From Anaerolineae bacterium (GTDB lineage Bacteria > Chloroflexota > Anaerolineae > Aggregatilineales > Phototrophicaceae): DNA of 64,000 nt. Of the stretch, positions 25,552 to 37,519 are shown piece after piece. Where the stretch lies: contig JAFLCG010000002.1 of assembly GCA_017303635.1 (NCBI GenBank), positions 344,918 through 408,917 of the forward strand. Direction: 5' to 3'. A program made the translations under genes and the position numbers. The number at the start of each line of letters is the position of its first letter. Positions within the stretch are counted from its first letter, which is position 1. The notes under the pieces were generated by a model that was not told the DNA's origin, made no database searches, and saw only the letters and a program-made list of their open reading frames with translations.

Positions 25552-25983
25552 ATGTCCTATGAATTAAGTTGGGAAATTGAAGGCCGGGTGGCCATCAATA
25601 CCCTGTATGGGGAAGTAACAGCTGCGGATGTCCATGATCTGCGCCATGCTGCCCGGGATCTTTCCAAAGAGTCAAGCTGGCCCATCCATACGCTGGTTGA
25701 TCTGAGCGGCATCACCAAGTATCAGACCAATATCGCCCTGATGAAAACCGCCATCGACTTCAAGTCCGAGCCGACCACAATCGGTTGGACTCTGATTTAC
25801 GGGGCACAGAACCCGCTCGTTCGTTTTATGGCTTCTCTACTCACGCAGATGTCAACCGGCCTGATGCACTTCCGTTTCTTTGACACCAAAGAGGCCGCGC
25901 TGGAGTGGTTGATTGACGAGGATATCACTCTGCGTCGGCACTACCGGCACGCTGCTGAAGCTGAAGAAGCGGCAACTTTCTAA
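25552..25983 (+). CDS. STAS/SpoIIAA-like small protein, family member A
   Basis: 143 residues. Alternating strand/helix pattern with a central VDLSG turn and the end motif FRFFDTKEAALEWL. The same layout (strand, helix, VD-x-(S/T)G, helix, strand, helix, RFF..EA..WL) occurs in three other proteins here, at 48231, 52919 and 53631. SpoIIAA-like/STAS proteins switch anti-sigma factors or kinases through protein contacts. Member A lies between a histidine kinase and a response regulator, which suggests it belongs to that pathway (inference). GAGGAGGGCAGG upstream gives a good ribosome site. No catalytic motif is visible. Confidence 0.65.
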   Translation: MSYELSWEIEGRVAINTLYGEVTAADVHDLRHAARDLSKESSWPIHTLVDLSGITKYQTNIALMKTAIDFKSEPTTIGWTLIYGAQNPLVRFMASLLTQMSTGLMHFRFFDTKEAALEWLIDEDITLRRHYRHAAEAEEAATF

Positions 25984-26153: not shown

Positions 26154-27080
26154 ATGAGTAAAGAACGCATCCTCGTTGTGGAAGACGATGCCGATATTGC
26201 CAATATGCTGAAGATCTACTTCAGTGGTCAACATTATGAAGTGCAGATCGCCCCACGCGGTAATGACGCGCTGGTGATGACGCGCAAACAACTGCCTCAC
26301 CTGATTATTCTGGACATCATGCTGCCGGATATGAATGGGTACGATGTCTGCCGCGAACTCCGTATGACTACCCGTACCAGCCATATCCCCATCATCTTCC
26401 TGACTCAGAAAGATGACCGCAGTGACAAGATGTTCGGCCTGGAACTGGGTGCAGATGACTACATCACCAAGCCCTTCGATATTGAAGAGCTTAAACTCCG
26501 TGTGAAGAATGCTATCAACGCCTCAATGCGGACGATGAACCTAAACCCCGTTTCTGGCCTGCCCACAGGCCGTCTGATCGAGGACCATCTGCGCGAGTTG
26601 ATGCGAACCGACCAGACCTGGGCGTACATTGACCTGAAGATCAATCACTTCGATGCCTTTAATGAAGTCTACGGTTTCCTCAGCGGCGATGAAGTGCTCC
26701 GCTTCATGGCGCTGCTGTTGGGCGATGTGGTCGATCAGATGGGTACGGGTAATGATTATGTCGGCCATCCCGGGCGCGACAACTTCATGTTAGTCACGCA
26801 CTCGCCGGATTATCGCCAGCTTACGGACCGGTTGGTCGAACGCTTCAATGACGAAGTGCGCCAGCACTACTCCTTCATCGACCGGGAGCGCGGCTATATT
26901 CTGGCCCCGGCCAGCGCCGGGGAGCGCCAGGAACCACTGATGACTCTGGCCGCAGGCGCCGTATCCAACTCCACCTATCGCTTCTCGGATATACGGGAAA
27001 TCACTGAGCTGGCGGCTGAAGATCGGCGGCGCGGACTGACTGGGGAAGAACCCCCTCCGCCCATTCTGACGTCGTGGTAA
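26154..27080 (+). CDS. Response regulator with REC and degenerate GGDEF domain
   Basis: 308 residues. REC domain 1-125 with acidic pair Asp11/Asp12, phospho-acceptor Asp54 (ILDIMLPD) and Lys in ITKPFD. The output half (130-290) looks like a GGDEF diguanylate-cyclase fold: it opens NPVSGLPTGRLIED, where active enzymes have D-x-L-T-x-L-P-N-R, and the catalytic position reads HPGRDNFML instead of GGDEF. It should therefore not make cyclic di-GMP; it may bind a nucleotide or act by protein contact. Spacing from the STAS-like gene is 170 bases. Likely partner of the PAS kinase upstream or of the giant kinase downstream. Confidence 0.85.
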   Translation: MSKERILVVEDDADIANMLKIYFSGQHYEVQIAPRGNDALVMTRKQLPHLIILDIMLPDMNGYDVCRELRMTTRTSHIPIIFLTQKDDRSDKMFGLELGADDYITKPFDIEELKLRVKNAINASMRTMNLNPVSGLPTGRLIEDHLRELMRTDQTWAYIDLKINHFDAFNEVYGFLSGDEVLRFMALLLGDVVDQMGTGNDYVGHPGRDNFMLVTHSPDYRQLTDRLVERFNDEVRQHYSFIDRERGYILAPASAGERQEPLMTLAAGAVSNSTYRFSDIREITELAAEDRRRGLTGEEPPPPILTSW

Positions 27081-27219: not shown

Positions 27220-30200
27220 ATGAATCTGGGTGTATTCCTGCTCATTGGCGGCATCGTCATCATCGCCGGGCTGTATCTTTGGGCGCGGCAGCGCCAGAGC
27301 CTGGGGTATATTCCTCCTGTCGATGCACCAACTTCATTCAGCACATCCCCGGATGATGGCGATAATGCCATCATTGTCGCCCGTCAGCACGGGCAAATCG
27401 TCCATATCAACCCGCGCGCAATGGAGTGGCTGGGTCTGGATGGCGCTGACCTGAATTTGGAACAAGTCGCCAGTCACGTCAAACCTGCGGATAGCTTCCT
27501 CGATTTGTTCGCCCGGCAGGGTCAGGCTTCTTTCCAGATTGGCAGTCGCTGGGTGGAGGGAGCTTCTCACCTCATTCCCGGCAGTGTCGAACAGCGCATG
27601 GTCATCGTCATGCGGGAACTGGGTGGGGCTGGCAGCGCCACAGCCACAGCATCCGCATCCCTCGACCTTCGTCGTGTGATGCAGATCACGGATGAAATTG
27701 GCGAAACGGTCAACGCCAGCATGAGCAGCCAGCAGGCCCTCCAGGCGCTCCTGACCATCATCCGGAAGGCAATCCCCGCCAGCGCCGGTGAAATCTCGAT
27801 CTGGCATGAAGAGACACGCACCCTCACCCCGGACTCGTGGGTGGGTGAAGGCTCATACCTGGTTTCGCTGGCAGAGCGCGGCGGAGTCTATCAATACGGG
27901 GAAGGGATCAGCGGCTGGATTGCCCGACACCGGCGTCCCGTACTCGTCAGTGATGTCAGCGACCCTACAGCCATCCAACCGAAGTTCAGCAGCCAGTTCC
28001 ATAGTTTTGTGGGTGTGCCGCTCGAATTGGGCGAGCGACTGCTCGGCACCCTGGAGTTAGCCGATACCGAGGCAGGGCGCTTTCAACAGACTGACCTGGC
28101 CTTGCTCCAGGCCATCAGCAAACAGGTCGCTATCGCGATCTTTAATGCAGATCTGTACAGCCAGCAGGCACAGCGCATCAGTGACATGGCGAACCTGCAA
28201 AACGTCCAGTTGGACGAAGAAAACGCACATGATCCCCGCGCGGTCTTCGCCGTCCTTAGTCAACGGTTAGCCACGCTCAGTCATGCCCGTATCGCTGGCA
28301 TCCTGCTCTACGATGAAGCACGCCGCGCCCTGGTGCCACAAGCGCCGTTTCACGGCCTGCCGGAGCAGCTCATCCCGCGTCTAGCATTCAGCTTGACGGA
28401 CGGCAGCGATCCCCTTGATATTTGGGAAAACCGCCCCTACTGGCATACCAATGAAGTGCCGGAGGTCGAATGGCTCAATCAGGCGGGTCTGGCGGGTACG
28501 CTGGCTTCGGCAGGGATTCGCAGTTTGGCTCTCCTGCCCTTGGAAGTGGGCTCGCGGCGGATTGGCATGGCTTTCATCGCCAACCGTCAGCCCGGCGGCT
28601 TCAATAATCAGGATATTAAGGACATGCGCTTGCTGGTCGCTCAGGCGGCCATCGTCGTCCAGAATATCCGCCTGTTCCAGCGAGAAGCGCGGCAGGATGC
28701 CGAACTAGCCGGTTTACAGGAAATTACCCAGGCGATTGGCTCGCTGCGGCAGACCGAAGGGGAATTCTATTCGGATATCAACGGCCGTATTGCCCGGCTG
28801 ATGGATGTGCAGGTGTGCGGCATCCTGCTCTATGACGAGGCCAGCAGCCGCCTGCGTCCTCAGATTCCCTTCTTTGGGGTGGCGGATACCGACCTGAACG
28901 GCTACGGTATCGACCTGCTGCCCGATTCGCCCATGACCGCACTCTGGGATGAAGGGGAAACCTGGTTCGCCAACCGTGTCGAAGAAAACGCCATTGTTCA
29001 TGCCTCTAATCTGGCGGAGGTTGCCGCCCGACTGGGCTTCAAGCAGATGATGCTGGCCCCGCTGGCCGTCGGTGGACGAAAACTAGGCGTGGTACAAGTC
29101 TCTAACCGGCTGACTGGTGAGGACTTCACGGACAAAGACGGTCAGCTCCTCCAGATTTTTGCGACCCAGGCGGCTGCCATCATCGAAAATGCCCGCCTGG
29201 TGCAGGATGTCCAGCGCAGCGCAGATCAATCCAACCGCTTGCGAAATATCGCTGAACTCTCCGGCAAGATCCTGACGACTGAAGATTCATTCGCCCTGAT
29301 CCTGAATGAAATTTCAACCTTGCTGGATAGCCCAATCGTCTTCATCAACCAGTTGGAAACGCAAACCGGCGCGCTGGTAACCTATCCCCGCTATGTTTTT
29401 GGGGCGGCATTGGCTGAACCCATCCGGCAGGACATTTTCAGTCCCGGTTTTGAGTACAGCGTGGTCTTTTCCCAGAATTCCTTTTTTAGCAACAGCGTGC
29501 TGAAAGATCAGCGCGTGCTGGAAAGTTATCTGGATATTGCCCGGCAGATGGGCATCAATCGCGCCGTCATCGTCCCCTTGATCGTCGGTGATCGCAGCCT
29601 GGGCGAGTTGGGCGTTGCTAATCGTCCCGATGATCCCTATACCGAAGCCGATGTCGAATTGATGGAAGCGGTCGCTGCCCAGATCGGCGCGACCATCGAG
29701 CGTCTGCAATTGTACGAAGCCTCTGGCGCTAACCTCTCCCGCCGCGTGCAGGAGCTCGACGCCATATCGGCAGTCACCAACGAACTGACCCGCACGCTCG
29801 ATCTCGATTCGGTGCTGGAACGCATCCGTGAACACAGCATCCGGGCTACTCGCGCTGATGGCGGCACCGTCATCCTGCTGAAATCGCTGAGCGCCCTGGA
29901 AGATCCCCACCAACCCGAAGCACGTCAGCGGTATGGCCTCGAAGATCAGGGGCTGAACATGGCGGATATCGAGCGCAGCGCTTTCTTCGCTGGCTCGGAA
30001 ACGGTCACCGTCTTTAATTACGCCACCAGCAATCTGAAACCTTTGCCCCCCCAGGCCGAATCTGCCCTGGCAGTTGCCTTTTTCTACGAAGATCAGATCG
30101 TCGGTGTGCTGCATCTGTATCATCATGAGCCGAACCACTTTGATGATCGTGCCGCCTCCTTCCTGTTGACAATGGCGGCCAAGGCCTCGCTCGGCTACGG

Positions 30201-33200
30201 CAACTATGTGCGCTATCAGGAACAGTTGGAGAGCAATTCGCGCCTGCGCCGCCGTGCCGAACAGATCAAACAGATCTTCGAGATGGGGCAGATGATCCAG
30301 ACCAATACCAGTCTGGAAGACATGTTGGAAGGCACGCTCTATAACATTCAGATCGGCACGGGCTATGATCTGGGTGTGGCGCTGGTGCTGGATGAAACTA
30401 CCAATACCTTCAGCCGCCTTGCCCAGATGGGGATGCCGCTGGAAGCCTTTGAACGCAGCCGCTACAACACCATCAGCCTGCAGGACCTGTTGACCCTCAT
30501 GCGGCGGGATTACGCCATGAGCGAGTCCTTCTTCTTCCCGGCAGAGTCGCGTGCAGACTGGGCAACGGTGGATATTAAAGCGCTGGAAGTCGGTTCGGCG
30601 GGCATCCGTCCCATGCCGGAACCCACCAGTCCAGCAGATTGGCATCAGGGCGATCTGCTGCTGGTGCCGCTCAACGGCGCAGGCGGCAACTTAATCGGCC
30701 TGCTCACGCTCGAACAGCCCCAGGATCACCGCCGTCCGGATAACGCCGCCATCGAACTGCTGGAGATTTTTGCGCATCAGGCAGCGGGTTCATTGGAGAA
30801 CCTGCGCCTGTATCAACAGACGCAGCAGAATGCCGAACAGGAAGCCCGTCTGAATGAAATGGTGGAAACCATTTCCGGTACGCTGGTCGCCAGCGAGATC
30901 ATTGATGGATTGGTGCAGACCGTTGTTAAAGTGCTGCCCATCTCCCGGCTGACCGTCGCGCTGGAAGATTCTGAACGGCAGGGGATGGAGATCACCCGCC
31001 TGCGGATCCTGACCGATGGCACCATCGTCACCAATCAGGAGCATCAGAGTTATCCTGAAGGCACCGCGCTGTATCAGGCTTTCCGCAGCGGGCAGCATGT
31101 CCTCTACACTGCCGACTCACCCGAGATTGAAGATCTCTCCGATCTGCGTTCGCTGTACTTCCAGTACGGCGAACGGGCCTCGCTGCTCATTCCGCTGTTC
31201 TCCGCCGAAGGCCCGCTCGGTGCGCTGCACATGGGCAGCGACCATGACAGCGCCGCCCTCTTTGAAGAAAATCGCTCGCTGCTTGTGCGTATGGCGAAGT
31301 TGGCTGCCGTCGCAATTGATAATGCCCGCCTGTTCAATCAGGCGATGAACCTCCAGACCTTCAACCAGTCGGTAGTCCAGTCCATCCAGCAAGGGATTGT
31401 GGTACTGGATAACTCCGGGCGTATCCTGTCGATCAACGACTTCATGCGCCAGCGGTATGGCTGGGTCACGCGGGATGCGCTGCGGCAAGATCTGTTCGTC
31501 TATAGCCCGGAATTGGATTTCCTCAAAACCGATCTGCAATCTGTCCTGGAGCAAGGCGAGCCGGTCGAGCGTATCCGCCAAATCACATCCGATGGGAATG
31601 GGGCCTCTCTCGTCCGCAACTTCTATTCTTACCCGCTCAAGACTGCGGAAACCATTCGTGGTGCGGTCATCCTGGTCGAAGATAATACCGAACGCTACGA
31701 GTTGGAGCAGGACGTTGAGCGCCGCGCGAACCAATTGGCAGCGCTGACCGAGATCTCCAGCCGCATCACCGCGACGCTGGATCGTGCGGACGTGGTCAAG
31801 CTGGCACTGGAAGAGATGGCTAAGCTCGTCACGTTCGACTCGCTGACATTGTGGACACGGGTCGATCAGGATTTGTATCTGGAAGGTGCACGGGTTGGTG
31901 GAGCGACCATCGACCTCCAGCCGCATGACCGCAAACGCCTGCGGCTTTCCGGCCATCCCCGAATGCGCGAAGTGGTCGATACAGGCCGCGTCTTCCGCAT
32001 CAATAATCTGCTCGGTACCGACTCGCTGCCTTTTGAAACCAACGCCAAAAGCTGGATGGGTGTCCCCTTGCTGGATCGTGGCGCTGTCGTCGGCGTGATC
32101 GCGCTGGCAAAAGATAGTCCACGCTTCTTCGATAACCAGTCCGAAGTTGCGGCGTCGAACTTCGGCAATCAGGTCGCTATTGCGCTCGCCAATGCCAGCC
32201 TGTTTGAAGAAGCCCAGTACCGCACCGAGCGCCTCAGCCTGATCAACCGTGTGTCGGTGGCGCTGGCGCAATCGCTGGACAGCGAAAATATTCTGGAAAT
32301 TGGTCTCAAGGAGATCGGTCAAAGCCTGGATATGCACCACGCCCAGGCCTGGATCTTTGACCGGGATGCCAACGTGGCCCGCGCCATCGTCACCCTGCCA
32401 CGCGGCGACGCCCCGCCGGATGAAGTCATCCCGCTGCGGGATAGCAGCCTCTTTATGCGGTTACGAGCCAGCAGCCAGCCAATCATCGTTGAAGATGTCA
32501 CCCGGCTGGAACAGGATGATCCAGTCTCCGGTGCGCTGACCGGGCGTGAACTCCACGCCTTTGCCCTCATTCCGATGATCGTCGGTGGGCAAGTCATCGG
32601 TGCCTTTGAGCTGATGGATGATAATCTCTCGCGGCAGTTCCGACCGGAACAGATCGAACTGGCGCTCATCATCGCCAATCAGGCCGCGATTGCCGTCCAG
32701 AACACCAATCTGTTCGAACAAACCCTCATCCGCAGCCGTGAACTGGAAACCCTGCTGGAAGCCGCCCAGGCCACTGCCCTCACCCGTGACCTGCCGGAAG
32801 CCTTCAGCCGGGTGACGGACCTGATCCTCAACGCCCTGGAGATGGATACCTGTTCCGTCATGCTGTGGGATAACGTCGAGGATGTGCTGGAGGTCGCGCT
32901 GGATGTGAGCCGCTATGGGGCCACCAACGGAACAGCAGCCACTCAGCGCCTATCGCTGCAACAGTATCCGCTGCGACGACGTTCGATGGACGAGCGCGAA
33001 ATCGTCGTGGTCCGGGTCGAAAATCCCCTCTCGGATGCCACTGAAGTCGCCGGGATGCGCGAACGGGGCGAAGCGCTGCGGCTGCTGCTGCCACTCGTTA
33101 CCCGCGACCAACCGATCGGCATGATCGTCAGCGCGCTCAAGCGCCCGAATCCGGCTTTTGGTCACCGGGAAGTCCGCTTGGCACAGGCGCTCGGTGCCCA

Positions 33201-35442
33201 GGCAGCCATCGCCATTCAGAATGCCCGCCTCTCGACCCAGACTGCCGCCCTGGTCGAACAGAGCTTCTACATCAACAACCTGGCCCAGTCGATCTCGTCA
33301 GCCCTCTCAATTGATGACATCGTCGAGATCGTCCGCGAGCAGGTGCCGCGCCTGATTGACGCCGCCGAAATGTACCTGGGACTCTATGATCCCAAGTCGC
33401 ACAACATCTTCTTCCCGATGGCGACCCGTGGCGAGACTGAGTTCCATCTGCCACAGCGCAGCCTGGGCAATGATGAAGCGTCGTTTATCATCAAGAAGCG
33501 TCGTTCGCTCTCGCTGGGCAGCGGCAACGTCGACGCCGATGACCTGCGCTCCAACCTGGGCATCGTCAGCGCGGAAAACAACGCCCGCAGTTACCTGGGC
33601 GTACCGATTGTGGCAGGCGATCAGGTCATGGGTGTGCTGGCAGTACGTGACCTGCAAAACCCCCGGCGCTTCGGCATCAATGACGAGCGCCTGCTGATGA
33701 CCGTCGGCACGCAGTTAGGCGTCGCTATCCAGAATGCCCGCCTGTTCGAGCAGGTGCGCGGCTTCGCGGCTGAACTCAACCTGCGCGTTGAAGAACGCAC
33801 CACCGAACTCCAGACCGAGCGTGACCGGTTGGATACGCTCTACCAGATCACCTCCGAACTCACCCGGTCACTGGACATGGAGCGTGTGCTCAACCGCGCC
33901 CTGGGCATGATCGTCAGCGCCGTCAGCGCGGATGATGGCGTGATCATGCTGCTGGATCCCATGTCGGATAGCCTGCTGACGCGGGCCGCCCTGCATCCTG
34001 TCGGCGTCGGTCAGGTACACCCCGCCCAGAGTATCGCCAATTACATGCTGATGACCGATACCGGTGATCCGCTGCTGCTGGCCGATCATTTGGAAACCCA
34101 GCCCTACTGGGATAACACAATACCAGGAGCGGATGCCTTCCACAGTGCGCTGGCAGTCCTGCTGGAGAGCGGTGATGATCCGCAGGGTGTGCTGGTGCTG
34201 CTCAGTTCTCGCACGCGCCTCTTCACTGATCCCCAGGTCAAGCTGGTCAATGCCGCTGCCAATCAGGTCGCGGCCGCTATCAACAATGCCGACCTCTACC
34301 AACTCATCCGTGAACAGGCGGAAAGCCTCGGCAAGCTGCTCCGTACCGAGCAGGAAGAAGCCGAAAAGAACTCAGCCATCGTCGAAGGCATTGCCGATGG
34401 CATCATGCTGGCGGATGCCGATGGAGTCATCATTCAGTTCAACAGTGCCGCCGAGCGCATGCTGGAACTGGATCGGGATGAAGTGGTCGGGCAGGCCCTC
34501 TTCAAACTGACGGGTATCTTTGGCGCTTCGGCCTCACGCTGGGCGGATGCTGTCGCCCGCTGGTCGGCCCAACCGGAAGCCCAACCTGCCGGGTTCTTCC
34601 TGGAAGAAAAGCTCGATCTGGGGCGGCGCATCGTCAATGTCCATCTCTCGCCAGTCAGCATCGGGGAGCAGTTCCTCGGCACTGTCTCGGTATTCCGCGA
34701 TGTGACTAAGGAAGTCGAAGTCGACCGCATCAAGAGCGAATTTGTCTCCAACGTTTCGCACGAACTCCGCACGCCGATGACCAGTATCAAGGGCTATGCC
34801 GATCTGCTGCTGATGGGCGTGGCGGGTCAACTGCCGGATGCACAAAAGGGCTTCCTGGAGAAGATCAAGTCGAATGCGGATCGCCTCAGCCACTTAGTCG
34901 ATGATCTGCTCAATATCTCCAAAATCGACTCTGGTGAGCAGATGTCGCTGGAAATGCTCGACCTGCGGGAAGTCATCAACAGCATTATCCAGCAGCATGA
35001 GCAGATCGCGGATCACGCTAAGAAGAACATGCGGGTGCGGATCGATGTGGAACCCGGCCTGCCCCTCATCCCGGCAGACCCGCATCACCTGAAGCAGATC
35101 CTCGATAACATCATCGATAATGCCTACAACTACAGCTATGCCGATGGTCTGATCTCGATTGAAGCCAAGGTCGAACGGCCTGCCGGTGACCGCGTCATCA
35201 TCTCGGTCAAGGATACCGGCATCGGCATTCCAGAGAACTTCAAAGAGCGCATCTGGGGCCGCTTTGAACGCTACGATGAAAACGCACTGGTGATGGATGT
35301 CGCCGGGACGGGTTTGGGTCTATCAATTGTTAAAGAACTGGTTCGACTGCATAATGGAGAAGTATGGTTTGAGTCGGAATTCGGGCATGGTTCGACCTTC
35401 TACATCGCCCTCCCGATCAACCAGCCACAGCAAGCCATGTAG
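27220..35442 (+). CDS. Giant sensor histidine kinase with twelve GAF domains
   Basis: 2740 residues. N-terminal membrane helix (2-22), a PAS-like domain (about 45-130), then twelve GAF-like sensor domains, each ending in the same kind of helix (variants of QVAIAIxNARLF) at about residues 310, 487, 660, 826, 995, 1191, 1365, 1655, 1825, 1998, 2168 and 2351. A PAS lies between GAF7 and GAF8 (about 1391-1491) and another after GAF12 (about 2386-2500). HisKA has His2514 in SNVSHELRTPM; HATPase_c follows at 2620-2735 (DNIIDNAYNYS, DTGIGIP, GTGLGLSIV). GAF domains bind cyclic nucleotides, bilins or heme; ligands here are unknown. First gene of an operon ending in thiamine pyrophosphokinase. Confidence 0.92.
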   Translation: MNLGVFLLIGGIVIIAGLYLWARQRQSLGYIPPVDAPTSFSTSPDDGDNAIIVARQHGQIVHINPRAMEWLGLDGADLNLEQVASHVKPADSFLDLFARQGQASFQIGSRWVEGASHLIPGSVEQRMVIVMRELGGAGSATATASASLDLRRVMQITDEIGETVNASMSSQQALQALLTIIRKAIPASAGEISIWHEETRTLTPDSWVGEGSYLVSLAERGGVYQYGEGISGWIARHRRPVLVSDVSDPTAIQPKFSSQFHSFVGVPLELGERLLGTLELADTEAGRFQQTDLALLQAISKQVAIAIFNADLYSQQAQRISDMANLQNVQLDEENAHDPRAVFAVLSQRLATLSHARIAGILLYDEARRALVPQAPFHGLPEQLIPRLAFSLTDGSDPLDIWENRPYWHTNEVPEVEWLNQAGLAGTLASAGIRSLALLPLEVGSRRIGMAFIANRQPGGFNNQDIKDMRLLVAQAAIVVQNIRLFQREARQDAELAGLQEITQAIGSLRQTEGEFYSDINGRIARLMDVQVCGILLYDEASSRLRPQIPFFGVADTDLNGYGIDLLPDSPMTALWDEGETWFANRVEENAIVHASNLAEVAARLGFKQMMLAPLAVGGRKLGVVQVSNRLTGEDFTDKDGQLLQIFATQAAAIIENARLVQDVQRSADQSNRLRNIAELSGKILTTEDSFALILNEISTLLDSPIVFINQLETQTGALVTYPRYVFGAALAEPIRQDIFSPGFEYSVVFSQNSFFSNSVLKDQRVLESYLDIARQMGINRAVIVPLIVGDRSLGELGVANRPDDPYTEADVELMEAVAAQIGATIERLQLYEASGANLSRRVQELDAISAVTNELTRTLDLDSVLERIREHSIRATRADGGTVILLKSLSALEDPHQPEARQRYGLEDQGLNMADIERSAFFAGSETVTVFNYATSNLKPLPPQAESALAVAFFYEDQIVGVLHLYHHEPNHFDDRAASFLLTMAAKASLGYGNYVRYQEQLESNSRLRRRAEQIKQIFEMGQMIQTNTSLEDMLEGTLYNIQIGTGYDLGVALVLDETTNTFSRLAQMGMPLEAFERSRYNTISLQDLLTLMRRDYAMSESFFFPAESRADWATVDIKALEVGSAGIRPMPEPTSPADWHQGDLLLVPLNGAGGNLIGLLTLEQPQDHRRPDNAAIELLEIFAHQAAGSLENLRLYQQTQQNAEQEARLNEMVETISGTLVASEIIDGLVQTVVKVLPISRLTVALEDSERQGMEITRLRILTDGTIVTNQEHQSYPEGTALYQAFRSGQHVLYTADSPEIEDLSDLRSLYFQYGERASLLIPLFSAEGPLGALHMGSDHDSAALFEENRSLLVRMAKLAAVAIDNARLFNQAMNLQTFNQSVVQSIQQGIVVLDNSGRILSINDFMRQRYGWVTRDALRQDLFVYSPELDFLKTDLQSVLEQGEPVERIRQITSDGNGASLVRNFYSYPLKTAETIRGAVILVEDNTERYELEQDVERRANQLAALTEISSRITATLDRADVVKLALEEMAKLVTFDSLTLWTRVDQDLYLEGARVGGATIDLQPHDRKRLRLSGHPRMREVVDTGRVFRINNLLGTDSLPFETNAKSWMGVPLLDRGAVVGVIALAKDSPRFFDNQSEVAASNFGNQVAIALANASLFEEAQYRTERLSLINRVSVALAQSLDSENILEIGLKEIGQSLDMHHAQAWIFDRDANVARAIVTLPRGDAPPDEVIPLRDSSLFMRLRASSQPIIVEDVTRLEQDDPVSGALTGRELHAFALIPMIVGGQVIGAFELMDDNLSRQFRPEQIELALIIANQAAIAVQNTNLFEQTLIRSRELETLLEAAQATALTRDLPEAFSRVTDLILNALEMDTCSVMLWDNVEDVLEVALDVSRYGATNGTAATQRLSLQQYPLRRRSMDEREIVVVRVENPLSDATEVAGMRERGEALRLLLPLVTRDQPIGMIVSALKRPNPAFGHREVRLAQALGAQAAIAIQNARLSTQTAALVEQSFYINNLAQSISSALSIDDIVEIVREQVPRLIDAAEMYLGLYDPKSHNIFFPMATRGETEFHLPQRSLGNDEASFIIKKRRSLSLGSGNVDADDLRSNLGIVSAENNARSYLGVPIVAGDQVMGVLAVRDLQNPRRFGINDERLLMTVGTQLGVAIQNARLFEQVRGFAAELNLRVEERTTELQTERDRLDTLYQITSELTRSLDMERVLNRALGMIVSAVSADDGVIMLLDPMSDSLLTRAALHPVGVGQVHPAQSIANYMLMTDTGDPLLLADHLETQPYWDNTIPGADAFHSALAVLLESGDDPQGVLVLLSSRTRLFTDPQVKLVNAAANQVAAAINNADLYQLIREQAESLGKLLRTEQEEAEKNSAIVEGIADGIMLADADGVIIQFNSAAERMLELDRDEVVGQALFKLTGIFGASASRWADAVARWSAQPEAQPAGFFLEEKLDLGRRIVNVHLSPVSIGEQFLGTVSVFRDVTKEVEVDRIKSEFVSNVSHELRTPMTSIKGYADLLLMGVAGQLPDAQKGFLEKIKSNADRLSHLVDDLLNISKIDSGEQMSLEMLDLREVINSIIQQHEQIADHAKKNMRVRIDVEPGLPLIPADPHHLKQILDNIIDNAYNYSYADGLISIEAKVERPAGDRVIISVKDTGIGIPENFKERIWGRFERYDENALVMDVAGTGLGLSIVKELVRLHNGEVWFESEFGHGSTFYIALPINQPQQAM

Positions 35443-35476: not shown

Positions 35477-35854
35477 ATGGCGAACATACTGGTAGCTGAA
35501 GACGAAAAAGACATCCGCGAACTCATCAACTTCACGCTGATGTTCGCAGGGCATACGGTGACCACGGCGGCCAACGGGGCCGAGGCAGTCGAACTGGCCC
35601 CCAAAGTCATGCCGGATCTCATCATGATGGATGTGCGCATGCCGAAGATGACCGGCTATGAAGCCTGCCGGGAAATGAAGCAGAATGACACCATCAAGCA
35701 TATTCCCGTGGTTTTCCTGTCGGCGAAAGGCCAGGATGAAGAAATTCAGACGGGTATTTCGGCGGGGGCAGTCGCCTATATTCTGAAGCCCTTCGCGCCG
35801 GAAGACCTGACCAAACAACTCGCGGCTATCCTCGAAAAACACGGAATCAAGTAG
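35477..35854 (+). CDS. CheY-like single-domain response regulator
   Basis: 125 residues, a receiver domain only. Acidic pocket Glu8/Asp9, phospho-acceptor Asp52 (IMMDVRMPK), the switch Ser in VFLSAKG and the conserved Lys in LKPFAPE. It sits 34 bases after the giant kinase gene and is the obvious phosphorylation target. With no output domain, it must pass the signal by protein contact; the hydrolase-fold protein encoded 4 bases downstream is a candidate partner (inference). Confidence 0.92.
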   Translation: MANILVAEDEKDIRELINFTLMFAGHTVTTAANGAEAVELAPKVMPDLIMMDVRMPKMTGYEACREMKQNDTIKHIPVVFLSAKGQDEEIQTGISAGAVAYILKPFAPEDLTKQLAAILEKHGIK

Positions 35855-35858
35855 GTTC

Positions 35859-36872
35859 ATGAGCGCCATCACCCTCAGCGGTGACCTGATCCATTACGAA
35901 GTCCACGGGCGCGGTCGTCCGGTGATTCTGCTGCATAGCTGGGTGGGCTCCTGGCGCTACTGGGTGCCGACCATGCAGCAGTTGGCCGTCAAGTACCGTG
36001 TCTACGTGCCGGACTTGCTCGGCTTTGGGGATTCCGCCCACAACCCCAACCACTACACCATCGACCATCAGGTGCAGGTGCTGGTGGACTTCATGGAGCA
36101 GATGGGTTTCCAAAAAGCTGGTTTTGTCGGGCATGGGCTGGGGGCGCTGGTCACCACGGCCTTCGCCCGCGCCTACCCGGATAAAGCACCGCGCATCATG
36201 CTGGTGAGCGCCCCCTTGTTTGACCCCGGTGGCCTGGAGCGCCGCGTCCCGGCAGCCCGCCGTCCGGTTGAAATCAGTCAGGCGATGGCGACCAACTTTG
36301 AGGGCACCATCATGAGTTCCTCGGTGCGGGCTGCCATGCTGGAGCTTCAGCGCAGCCGCCAGGGGGATGAAACCATTAGCAGCGCCGCCGCGCTGGCCGC
36401 GCTCGATGACAGCCTGAGCAAAGCGCCCAAACACAACCCCTTCACCGAACGCGATGGCCTGCTGAGTCTGACGCCGGAAGCCATGCTCAACCGCTGCTTC
36501 CGCCGCACCGACCCGATCTATGAAAAGCTGGCGCTGGATCTGCCGCGTACCGATATGGCCTCGATCCGCACCAGCGTGAGCGATTTTGACTCCGGTCGCT
36601 TCCTGGATACCATCCGCCTGCTGCCGATGCCCAAGATCATCGTCCACGGGGAAGATGATCCCCTGCTGCCGGTGCCAACCGAAAGTGTGCTCAACTACCT
36701 CTCGGTGGAAACCGAGCAGATCGCGCCGCCGGTCACCATCATCGCGCCGGATGTGCGCCACTTCCCCATGCTGGAGTATGAACGCTTCTCCCGGTTGGTG
36801 AATGATTTCCTCGAAGTCCCTGACCTCAGCACGCTGGAAGTGAAGGAACGTTGGAAGCGCCGCACCCGCTAA
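35859..36872 (+). CDS. Alpha/beta-hydrolase-fold protein lacking the nucleophile
   Basis: 337 residues. Oxyanion-type start VILLHSWVGSWRYW (22-35) and the strand-5 nucleophile elbow FVGHGLGALV. The elbow normally reads G-x-S-x-G, but here it is G-H-G-L-G with Gly93 in the nucleophile position. The acid (HGEDDPLLP) and the His (DVRHFPMLEY) of the triad remain. It should not work as an ordinary serine hydrolase and may be a binding protein, as alpha/beta-fold signalling partners can be (RsbQ, the companion of RsbP, has this fold but keeps Ser). It starts 4 bases after the CheY stop, in the kinase operon. Possibly a non-ester chemistry remains. Confidence 0.8.
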   Translation: MSAITLSGDLIHYEVHGRGRPVILLHSWVGSWRYWVPTMQQLAVKYRVYVPDLLGFGDSAHNPNHYTIDHQVQVLVDFMEQMGFQKAGFVGHGLGALVTTAFARAYPDKAPRIMLVSAPLFDPGGLERRVPAARRPVEISQAMATNFEGTIMSSSVRAAMLELQRSRQGDETISSAAALAALDDSLSKAPKHNPFTERDGLLSLTPEAMLNRCFRRTDPIYEKLALDLPRTDMASIRTSVSDFDSGRFLDTIRLLPMPKIIVHGEDDPLLPVPTESVLNYLSVETEQIAPPVTIIAPDVRHFPMLEYERFSRLVNDFLEVPDLSTLEVKERWKRRTR

Positions 36873-37519
36873 AAGCGCTCATTTTCGCCAATGGAGATCC
36901 CAACGACGGCCCGCTGGTTCGGCAGGTTCTGGCGTCGGCGGATGCTGCCTGGATCATTGCAGCCGATGGTGGTGCCCGTCAGGCGGCATTCTTTGGCTTC
37001 CAACCACAGCTCGTCATCGGTGACCTGGACTCGCTGACCGCTGCCGAAGTTGCCGCACTGGAAGCGGAAGGTGTCGCTATCCACCGCGCCCCTCCGGAAA
37101 AAGACGAAACCGATCTGGAGCTGGCGCTGCTCCACGCCGCCGCTCAGGGCGTGCGCTGGATTCGCATCATCAGCGGCATTGGCGACCGCATTGACCAGTC
37201 GCTCGGCAACCTCTATCTGATGGCGCTCCCTGTCCTGGCAGGGATGGATGTACGGCTGGTGGCCCGCAATCAACAGACCTGGTTGATGCGCCCCGGCCTT
37301 AATCCGGTGGATGGCGCGCCAGGGGATACCCTCTCGCTGCTGCCGGTGGGCGGGGACGCGGTCGGGATCCGCACCGACGGCCTGCATTACCCCCTGCGGG
37401 ATGAAACCCTGCGCTTTGGCCCCGCTCGCGGCATGAGCAATGTGCTGACCAGCCCTCAGGCCCAAGTCACCCTCGCCTCCGGCCTGCTGCTGGCGATCCA
37501 CACGCTGGGCCGGGCCTGA
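36851..37519 (+). CDS. thiN: Thiamine pyrophosphokinase
   Basis: 222 residues. Transfers pyrophosphate from ATP to thiamine to give thiamine diphosphate. The TPK signature is clear: IIAADGGARQA (36-46), QLVIGDLDSLT and EKDETDLELALLHA, with acidic residues for magnesium. A beta-rich C-terminal domain (about 140-220) binds thiamine (HYPLRDETL, GMSNVL). The start is TTG 36851, overlapping the hydrolase gene by 22 bases with AAGGA close before it, so translation is coupled to the signalling operon. I see no TPP riboswitch, expected only if it had its own promoter. Confidence 0.88.
   Translation: MEAPHPLKALIFANGDPNDGPLVRQVLASADAAWIIAADGGARQAAFFGFQPQLVIGDLDSLTAAEVAALEAEGVAIHRAPPEKDETDLELALLHAAAQGVRWIRIISGIGDRIDQSLGNLYLMALPVLAGMDVRLVARNQQTWLMRPGLNPVDGAPGDTLSLLPVGGDAVGIRTDGLHYPLRDETLRFGPARGMSNVLTSPQAQVTLASGLLLAIHTLGRA

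Follow-up and report, generated by a model that had tools for sequence, protein, structure and literature searches.

How a single kinase polypeptide could combine a dozen sensor domains, and with which proteins it would work, is the question raised by a giant gene of an Anaerolineae bacterium (Chloroflexota; GenBank assembly GCA_017303635.1), analysed here within a stretch of 64,000 nucleotides of contig JAFLCG010000002.1 (the window). Members of the Chloroflexota occur widely, and the filamentous ones are of importance in mats and in sludge; to our knowledge, the signalling genes of the phylum have hardly been studied. The original prediction, made from the DNA alone, was of a 2740-residue histidine kinase with twelve GAF domains, two inner PAS domains and one HisKA-HATPase unit behind an N-terminal PAS-like domain, and this architecture was borne out. 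The gene (27220..35442, + strand) starts with ATG and encodes 2740 amino acids with no internal stop. Pfam recognizes twelve GAF_2 stretches (E 5.8e-125), twelve GAF matches, two PAS domains, HisKA (residues 2505–2572) and HATPase_c (2620–2734), and a GAF profile made from the kinase and its relatives again returns twelve GAFs rather than far fewer. The main interest of the locus is the conserved operon to which the kinase belongs, in which two of its partners look like degenerate enzymes; the prediction missed both degeneracies.

All parts of the kinase lie on the + strand and are given with residue numbers and window coordinates. A transmembrane helix is predicted at residues 2–27 (27223..27300; sequence and AlphaFold2 model), and the N-terminus is hydrophobic in most intact kinase orthologues. 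The AlphaFold2 model of residues 1–489, which used 39 sequences (pLDDT 88), places this helix ahead of a PAS-type fold at 49–133 (27364..27618), followed by GAF1 and GAF2; the N-terminal PAS-like domain is thus recovered as a fold, though it has no Pfam match. The top rows of a VIA-align comparison of this model (Z about 20) are GAF structures matching from residue 147 onward, and rows spanning 47–317 are PAS-GAF bidomains. GAF1 (150–316; 27667..28167), identified by Pfam, our own profile, conservation, the AlphaFold2 model and fold matches, is the most conserved of the twelve and is joined to GAF2 (340–489; 28237..28686) by a modelled helix at 290–331. The domains from GAF2 to GAF11 were delimited by our own profile and conservation: GAF3 (510–664; 28747..29211), GAF4 (685–835; 29272..29724), GAF5 (857–1002; 29788..30225), GAF6 (1025–1201; 30292..30822) and GAF7, the least conserved (1225–1375; 30892..31344), lie ahead of a highly conserved middle PAS domain (about 1376–1520; 31345..31779; a Pfam stretch whose position is estimated from sequence), which is followed by GAF8 (1530–1665; 31807..32214), GAF9 (1690–1835; 32287..32724), GAF10 (1860–2008; 32797..33243) and GAF11 (2030–2179; 33307..33756). 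GAF12 (2205–2363; 33832..34308), which Pfam also identifies, precedes the C-terminal PAS domain (2384–2499; 34369..34716; Pfam). The HisKA domain (34732..34935) carries the predicted phospho-acceptor His2514 within SHELRTP, and the HATPase_c domain (35077..35421) carries the N, G1 and G2 boxes; the H-box, N, G1 and G2 motifs, by which a sensor histidine kinase is recognized, lie at 2513, 2629, 2665 and 2696, and the H-box and G2 motifs are kept in all complete orthologues.

What the GAFs might bind is less readily read from the protein. The kinase has only two cysteines, 533 and 1878, the latter in GAF10 and invariant in 18 aligned family members; there is none in the N-terminal PAS domain, GAF1 or GAF2, and a PASDIP-like motif is absent from the whole kinase. 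A loose NKFDE-like pattern occurs in GAF2 and GAF3 only, and many GAFs whose ligand is not known share this motif. On these grounds the sequence offers no support for chromophore binding and little for cyclic-nucleotide binding by the GAFs, and no ligand pocket of the kinds that had been envisaged was assigned. Structures of PAS-GAF-PHY type headed a Foldseek search with the N-terminal region; bilin or light sensing of the phytochrome or cyanobacteriochrome type was rejected, since the N-terminal PAS and GAF domains lack both the cysteine and a PASDIP-like motif.

An array of this kind could arise from misassembled repeats or recent tandem duplication, and both were ruled out. The closest pair of GAFs inside the kinase shares about 33% identity, DNA repeats are short and mostly of 60–80% identity, the whole genome holds one full-length copy, and independent relatives encode a kinase of the same length and architecture. 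One member of the family (L065) has a reciprocal-best partner for every GAF of the window kinase, at the same position from 1 to 12; a second (L067) lacks only GAF9, and a third (L085) lacks GAF7 and GAF9. Such collinear, reciprocal-best pairing indicates that each GAF carries its own conserved identity within the family. Outside the family GAF number varies from 7 to 17, so not every GAF can be essential: orthologues at the level of the order have additional GAFs in the stretch that runs from GAF6 to mid-array, and one (L069) has four GAF9-like domains ahead of GAF8 and 17 GAFs in total. Twelve GAFs are therefore a large complement but not an exceptional one, and no record.

Orthologues of 1.7–3.7 thousand residues are spread widely through the phylum. 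The N-terminal half of the kinase used as query finds matches in 16 of 16 relatives in the genus, in 7 of 8 genera elsewhere in the family and, beyond the family, in 16 of 16 sampled members of the order, part of these matches being fragments on short contigs; at class level, 21 of 150 sampled genomes match the kinase at E 1e-60, and in a further class of Chloroflexota the operon was located through its response regulator gene. The expectation that kinases of this size are rare holds in general, but within Chloroflexota this one is a conserved gene. The genome of the window also encodes other multi-GAF reading frames, one with 10 GAFs in 1827 residues and one with at least 8 GAFs in 2249 residues (L229 and L230, on C12 and C38).

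A response regulator with a degenerate GGDEF domain, the giant kinase, a CheY-like receiver and an alpha/beta-hydrolase are encoded in this order on one strand, and 52 loci, from genus to class, show the same order and strand (response regulator aligned in 50, CheY in 51, hydrolase in 48). The lone CheY and the hydrolase-fold protein had been noted downstream; that the kinase heads the operon is doubtful, as the conserved response regulator gene (26154..27080, + strand) precedes it, lies upstream of the kinase in 50 of the 52 loci and is probably the first gene of the operon. Farther upstream, between the gene for a PAS histidine kinase and that for the response regulator, the window encodes a weakly SpoIIAA-like protein (25552–25983; Pfam E 1.4e-4, below the cut-off), which is not conserved as a neighbour in relatives. 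The single-domain CheY-like receiver (35477..35854, + strand; 125 residues, Asp52; Pfam) aligns in 51 of 52 relatives with the motif DVRMP or DLRMP. In the second class, a separate CheY gene is absent from most members and the hydrolase gene overlaps the kinase gene; in four members of the window's class (L086, L091, L094 and L096), two receiver domains are fused to the C-terminus of the kinase, after HATPase.

A less biased measure of linkage came from scanning genome contigs with the hydrolase alone and taking the best 80 matches. The kinase lies directly upstream in 74 of these, and 1, cut off by the end of its contig, has only CheY there; in the other 5 neither is adjacent, yet all 5 genomes encode the giant kinase elsewhere, and co-expression of hydrolase and kinase is thus not obligatory. 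Named among the records of the scan are Chloroflexaceae, Oscillochloris, Candidatus Chloroploca, Anaerolinea and Aggregatilineales, and all of the best 80 belong to Chloroflexota apart from one contig with the label Bacteroidetes (L134). That contig carries the operon, nests inside the closest group of the window in the hydrolase tree and is probably a mis-binned or mislabelled contig of a metagenome-assembled genome. Downstream, a thiamine diphosphokinase gene (36851..37519, + strand; TIGR01378) overlaps the hydrolase gene; it is a neighbour at 25 loci, frequent but not universal, which shows that a gene can accompany the operon without being a signalling partner. A description of the operon was not found in the open-access literature searched, and it is apparently undescribed so far.

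The probable first gene of the operon encodes a 308-residue response regulator in which Pfam and alignment identify a receiver with Asp54 (Response_reg) and a degenerate GGDEF domain. In the window protein the signature reads GRDNF instead of GG[DE]EF, neither GGDEF nor GGEEF occurs among 31 aligned response regulators, and those with GGDDF have lost the Asp of the first strand. In GGDEF enzymes such as PleD, these acids bind the catalytic metal. A functional diguanylate cyclase was rejected on motif, as GG[DE][ED]F and both metal-binding acids are not intact together, and so was a canonical c-di-GMP I-site (RxxD) in the window protein, where the alignment, inspected by eye, keeps the Asp but has Thr at the position of the Arg. 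In a sequence-profile comparison with the PDB, structures of PleD match best; the operon protein differs from PleD-type regulators in having one receiver, not two, and a GGDEF signature that is either G-x-D-N-F or wholly lost. Judged from these motifs, cyclase activity is not expected.

The second degenerate partner is the alpha/beta-hydrolase-fold protein (35859..36872, + strand; Pfam, alignments, a structure model and fold matches), in which GHGLG stands in place of GxSxG. Its model is confident (pLDDT 88) and matches esterases with Z about 28, the nearest folds being esterases, haloperoxidases and lactonases. The window protein has Gly93 at the nucleophile site, with Asp267 and His301 present. 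Across the best 80 loci this site is Gly in 62 (including the relatives of the window), Ser in 11 and Asp in 7, and other class members have Ala and Thr too (Thr in L094 and L098). Both Asp267 and His301 are found in each of the 48 aligned hydrolases; in a wider set Asn replaces the Asp in two (L090 and L119), and His301 is kept throughout the aligned sets. The hydrolase tree contains several switches of the Gly state, of which at least 6 are forced by supported branches. Loss of Ser does not strictly track linkage to the kinase, an idea that was rejected because six linked hydrolases keep Ser just as the five unlinked ones do, because the genomes of those five encode the kinase elsewhere, and because the tree shows these several switches. 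The Ser-bearing hydrolases of L154, L164, L173, L175, L187 and L199 have long inserts, rich in Pro and Ala, where the core strands give way to the cap region. The C-terminal tail of the hydrolase, where model confidence is low, is basic and has a nearly invariant W-x-R-R.

Whether this protein belongs to the signalling pathway at all can be asked, since the kinase might be large and multi-sensory but otherwise ordinary, and its neighbours unrelated genes that vertical descent has kept beside it, the hydrolase having a metabolic role of its own. Many multi-GAF kinases are present in Chloroflexota genomes (the genome of the window has the 10-GAF reading frame and others), and thiamine diphosphokinase likewise travels with the locus. 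Nevertheless, kinase and hydrolase occur together in all of the best 80 hydrolase matches bar the single CheY-only contig end, and the operon hydrolase is degenerate at the nucleophile, whereas all nine paralogues from the same genome that align across the site have Ser; we therefore consider this explanation quite improbable. Ordinary multi-sensor PAS/GAF histidine kinases do share with the giant kinase their domain types, kinase motifs and a cytoplasmic sensor array ahead of a single HisKA, but the giant kinase is set apart by its size, by up to 12 distinct GAFs conserved in collinear order and by a fixed operon with a pseudoGGDEF response regulator, CheY and hydrolase.

Given the features established at the level of sequence (domain content, intact kinase motifs, a conserved operon, a degenerate GGDEF domain and a replaced nucleophile), the reading we favour is that the window contains one copy of a signalling operon that is ancient in Chloroflexota, has been inherited vertically and would encode a membrane-anchored phosphorelay hub with protein–protein outputs and a hydrolase-fold co-sensor; to this reading, origin and mechanism together, we assign a probability of about 0.5. 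The single N-terminal helix would anchor the kinase and leave the sensor array in the cytoplasm, where the twelve GAFs and three PAS domains, with helices as connectors, would make up a long rod, presumably a dimer, along which conformational changes reach HisKA. As every complete copy has intact kinase motifs, the natural reading is that His2514 is autophosphorylated and feeds the two receivers of the operon, the lone CheY at Asp52 and the response regulator at Asp54. Neither receiver has an intact effector enzyme, and output is thus probably by contact between proteins. The idea that many signals are integrated into one output is plausible, with GAFs that are individually conserved and collinear in the family and an H-box and G2 that are kept in all complete copies, but no ligand pocket was assigned. 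The hydrolase-fold protein would serve as a dedicated co-sensor: it would bind a small molecule and signal this to the kinase or to one of the receivers, perhaps by way of its W-x-R-R tail. In its boldest form, with the nucleophile-less hydrolase as a dedicated small-molecule receptor for the GAF-array kinase and two receivers acting by contact alone throughout the phylum, the proposal is a tentative one.

The co-sensor role is weighed chiefly against the possibility that the hydrolase is still an enzyme. Asp267 and His301 could activate water or abstract a proton without a covalent nucleophile, and the protein would then make or destroy a signal read by a GAF or PAS domain; such nucleophile-free chemistry is the main alternative, given the conservation of the Asp–His pair, and this near-invariant pair suits a residual enzymatic role equally well as binding. 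In several of the hydrolases the nucleophile site is occupied by Ser or Asp, which also counts against a purely sensory role, and the nearest folds include esterases and lactonases. RsbQ, an alpha/beta-hydrolase, is likewise proposed to provide the PAS domain of RsbP with a signal. It forms with PAS a bipartite sensor that is coupled to phosphatases, histidine kinases or cyclases, and its catalytic triad is required for signalling in B. subtilis (PMC3183031). Against an enzyme, Gly, the commonest state, cannot be a nucleophile, and a site that is also Asp, Ser, Thr or Ala, with at least 6 forced changes of the Gly state, would be unusual for a conserved reaction; an enzymatic role is possible, though we doubt it. 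Like RsbQ–RsbP, the operon pairs an alpha/beta-hydrolase gene with one for a signalling protein that bears PAS (in RsbQ modules this is in some cases a histidine kinase), and PAS is the most N-terminal sensor. Here the two genes share an operon with the CheY gene between them, and are adjacent in the second class. The differences are that RsbQ needs an intact Ser-Asp-His, whereas hydrolases of the window type usually have Gly for Ser, and that the kinase is many times larger, is dominated by GAFs and has two receivers and another gene order. By analogy, the hydrolase may work like RsbQ, yet it is not classed as RsbQ because it fails the test of the Ser-Asp-His triad.

The favoured reading must also be set beside a wider cluster found in some relatives. 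At several Anaerolineae loci, genes for a DUF4388 protein, a small Ras-like GTPase, a Ser-type hydrolase, a V4R protein, a hexapeptide protein and an acyl-ACP-reductase-like protein precede the response regulator and kinase (L088–L093 and L097, where V4R and others vary by locus), and the hexapeptide gene adjoins the response regulator in the second class too. PATAN proteins have been described near MglA-family GTPases (PMC4316618), a neighbourhood that, by analogy, hints at polarity or surface functions. The module could accordingly be the regulatory arm of a Ras-like GTPase and cell-surface system, in which CheY and the response regulator steer the DUF4388, GTPase and V4R genes in, for example, polarity or surface motility. 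This is unlikely, for the GTPase link is missing at many loci, and the wider-cluster genes are absent beside the operon of the window. Its genome has hexapeptide and reductase-like genes side by side on another contig (G000:C36:40632-41987; L223 and L224), apart from the kinase operon and with no GTPase gene seen beside them, so the wider cluster is only a lead. The Ras-like GTPase that some relatives encode close to a histidine kinase or receivers recalls conservons (CvnA-D) and MglA/RomR polarity modules, but no GTPase was seen in the window and no roadblock (CvnB/MglB) gene is among the named conserved neighbours; of the conservon partners roadblock, DUF742 and GTPase, none was identified in the window operon, and GTPase occurs in some relatives only.

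That the operon is conserved from the order of the window as far as a second class points to a core function, apparently undescribed. The locus offers testable cases of one kinase that joins a dozen distinct GAFs and of a hydrolase fold that seems to have become a signalling partner; if true, the receptor reading would parallel the recruitment of hydrolase folds as plant hormone receptors.
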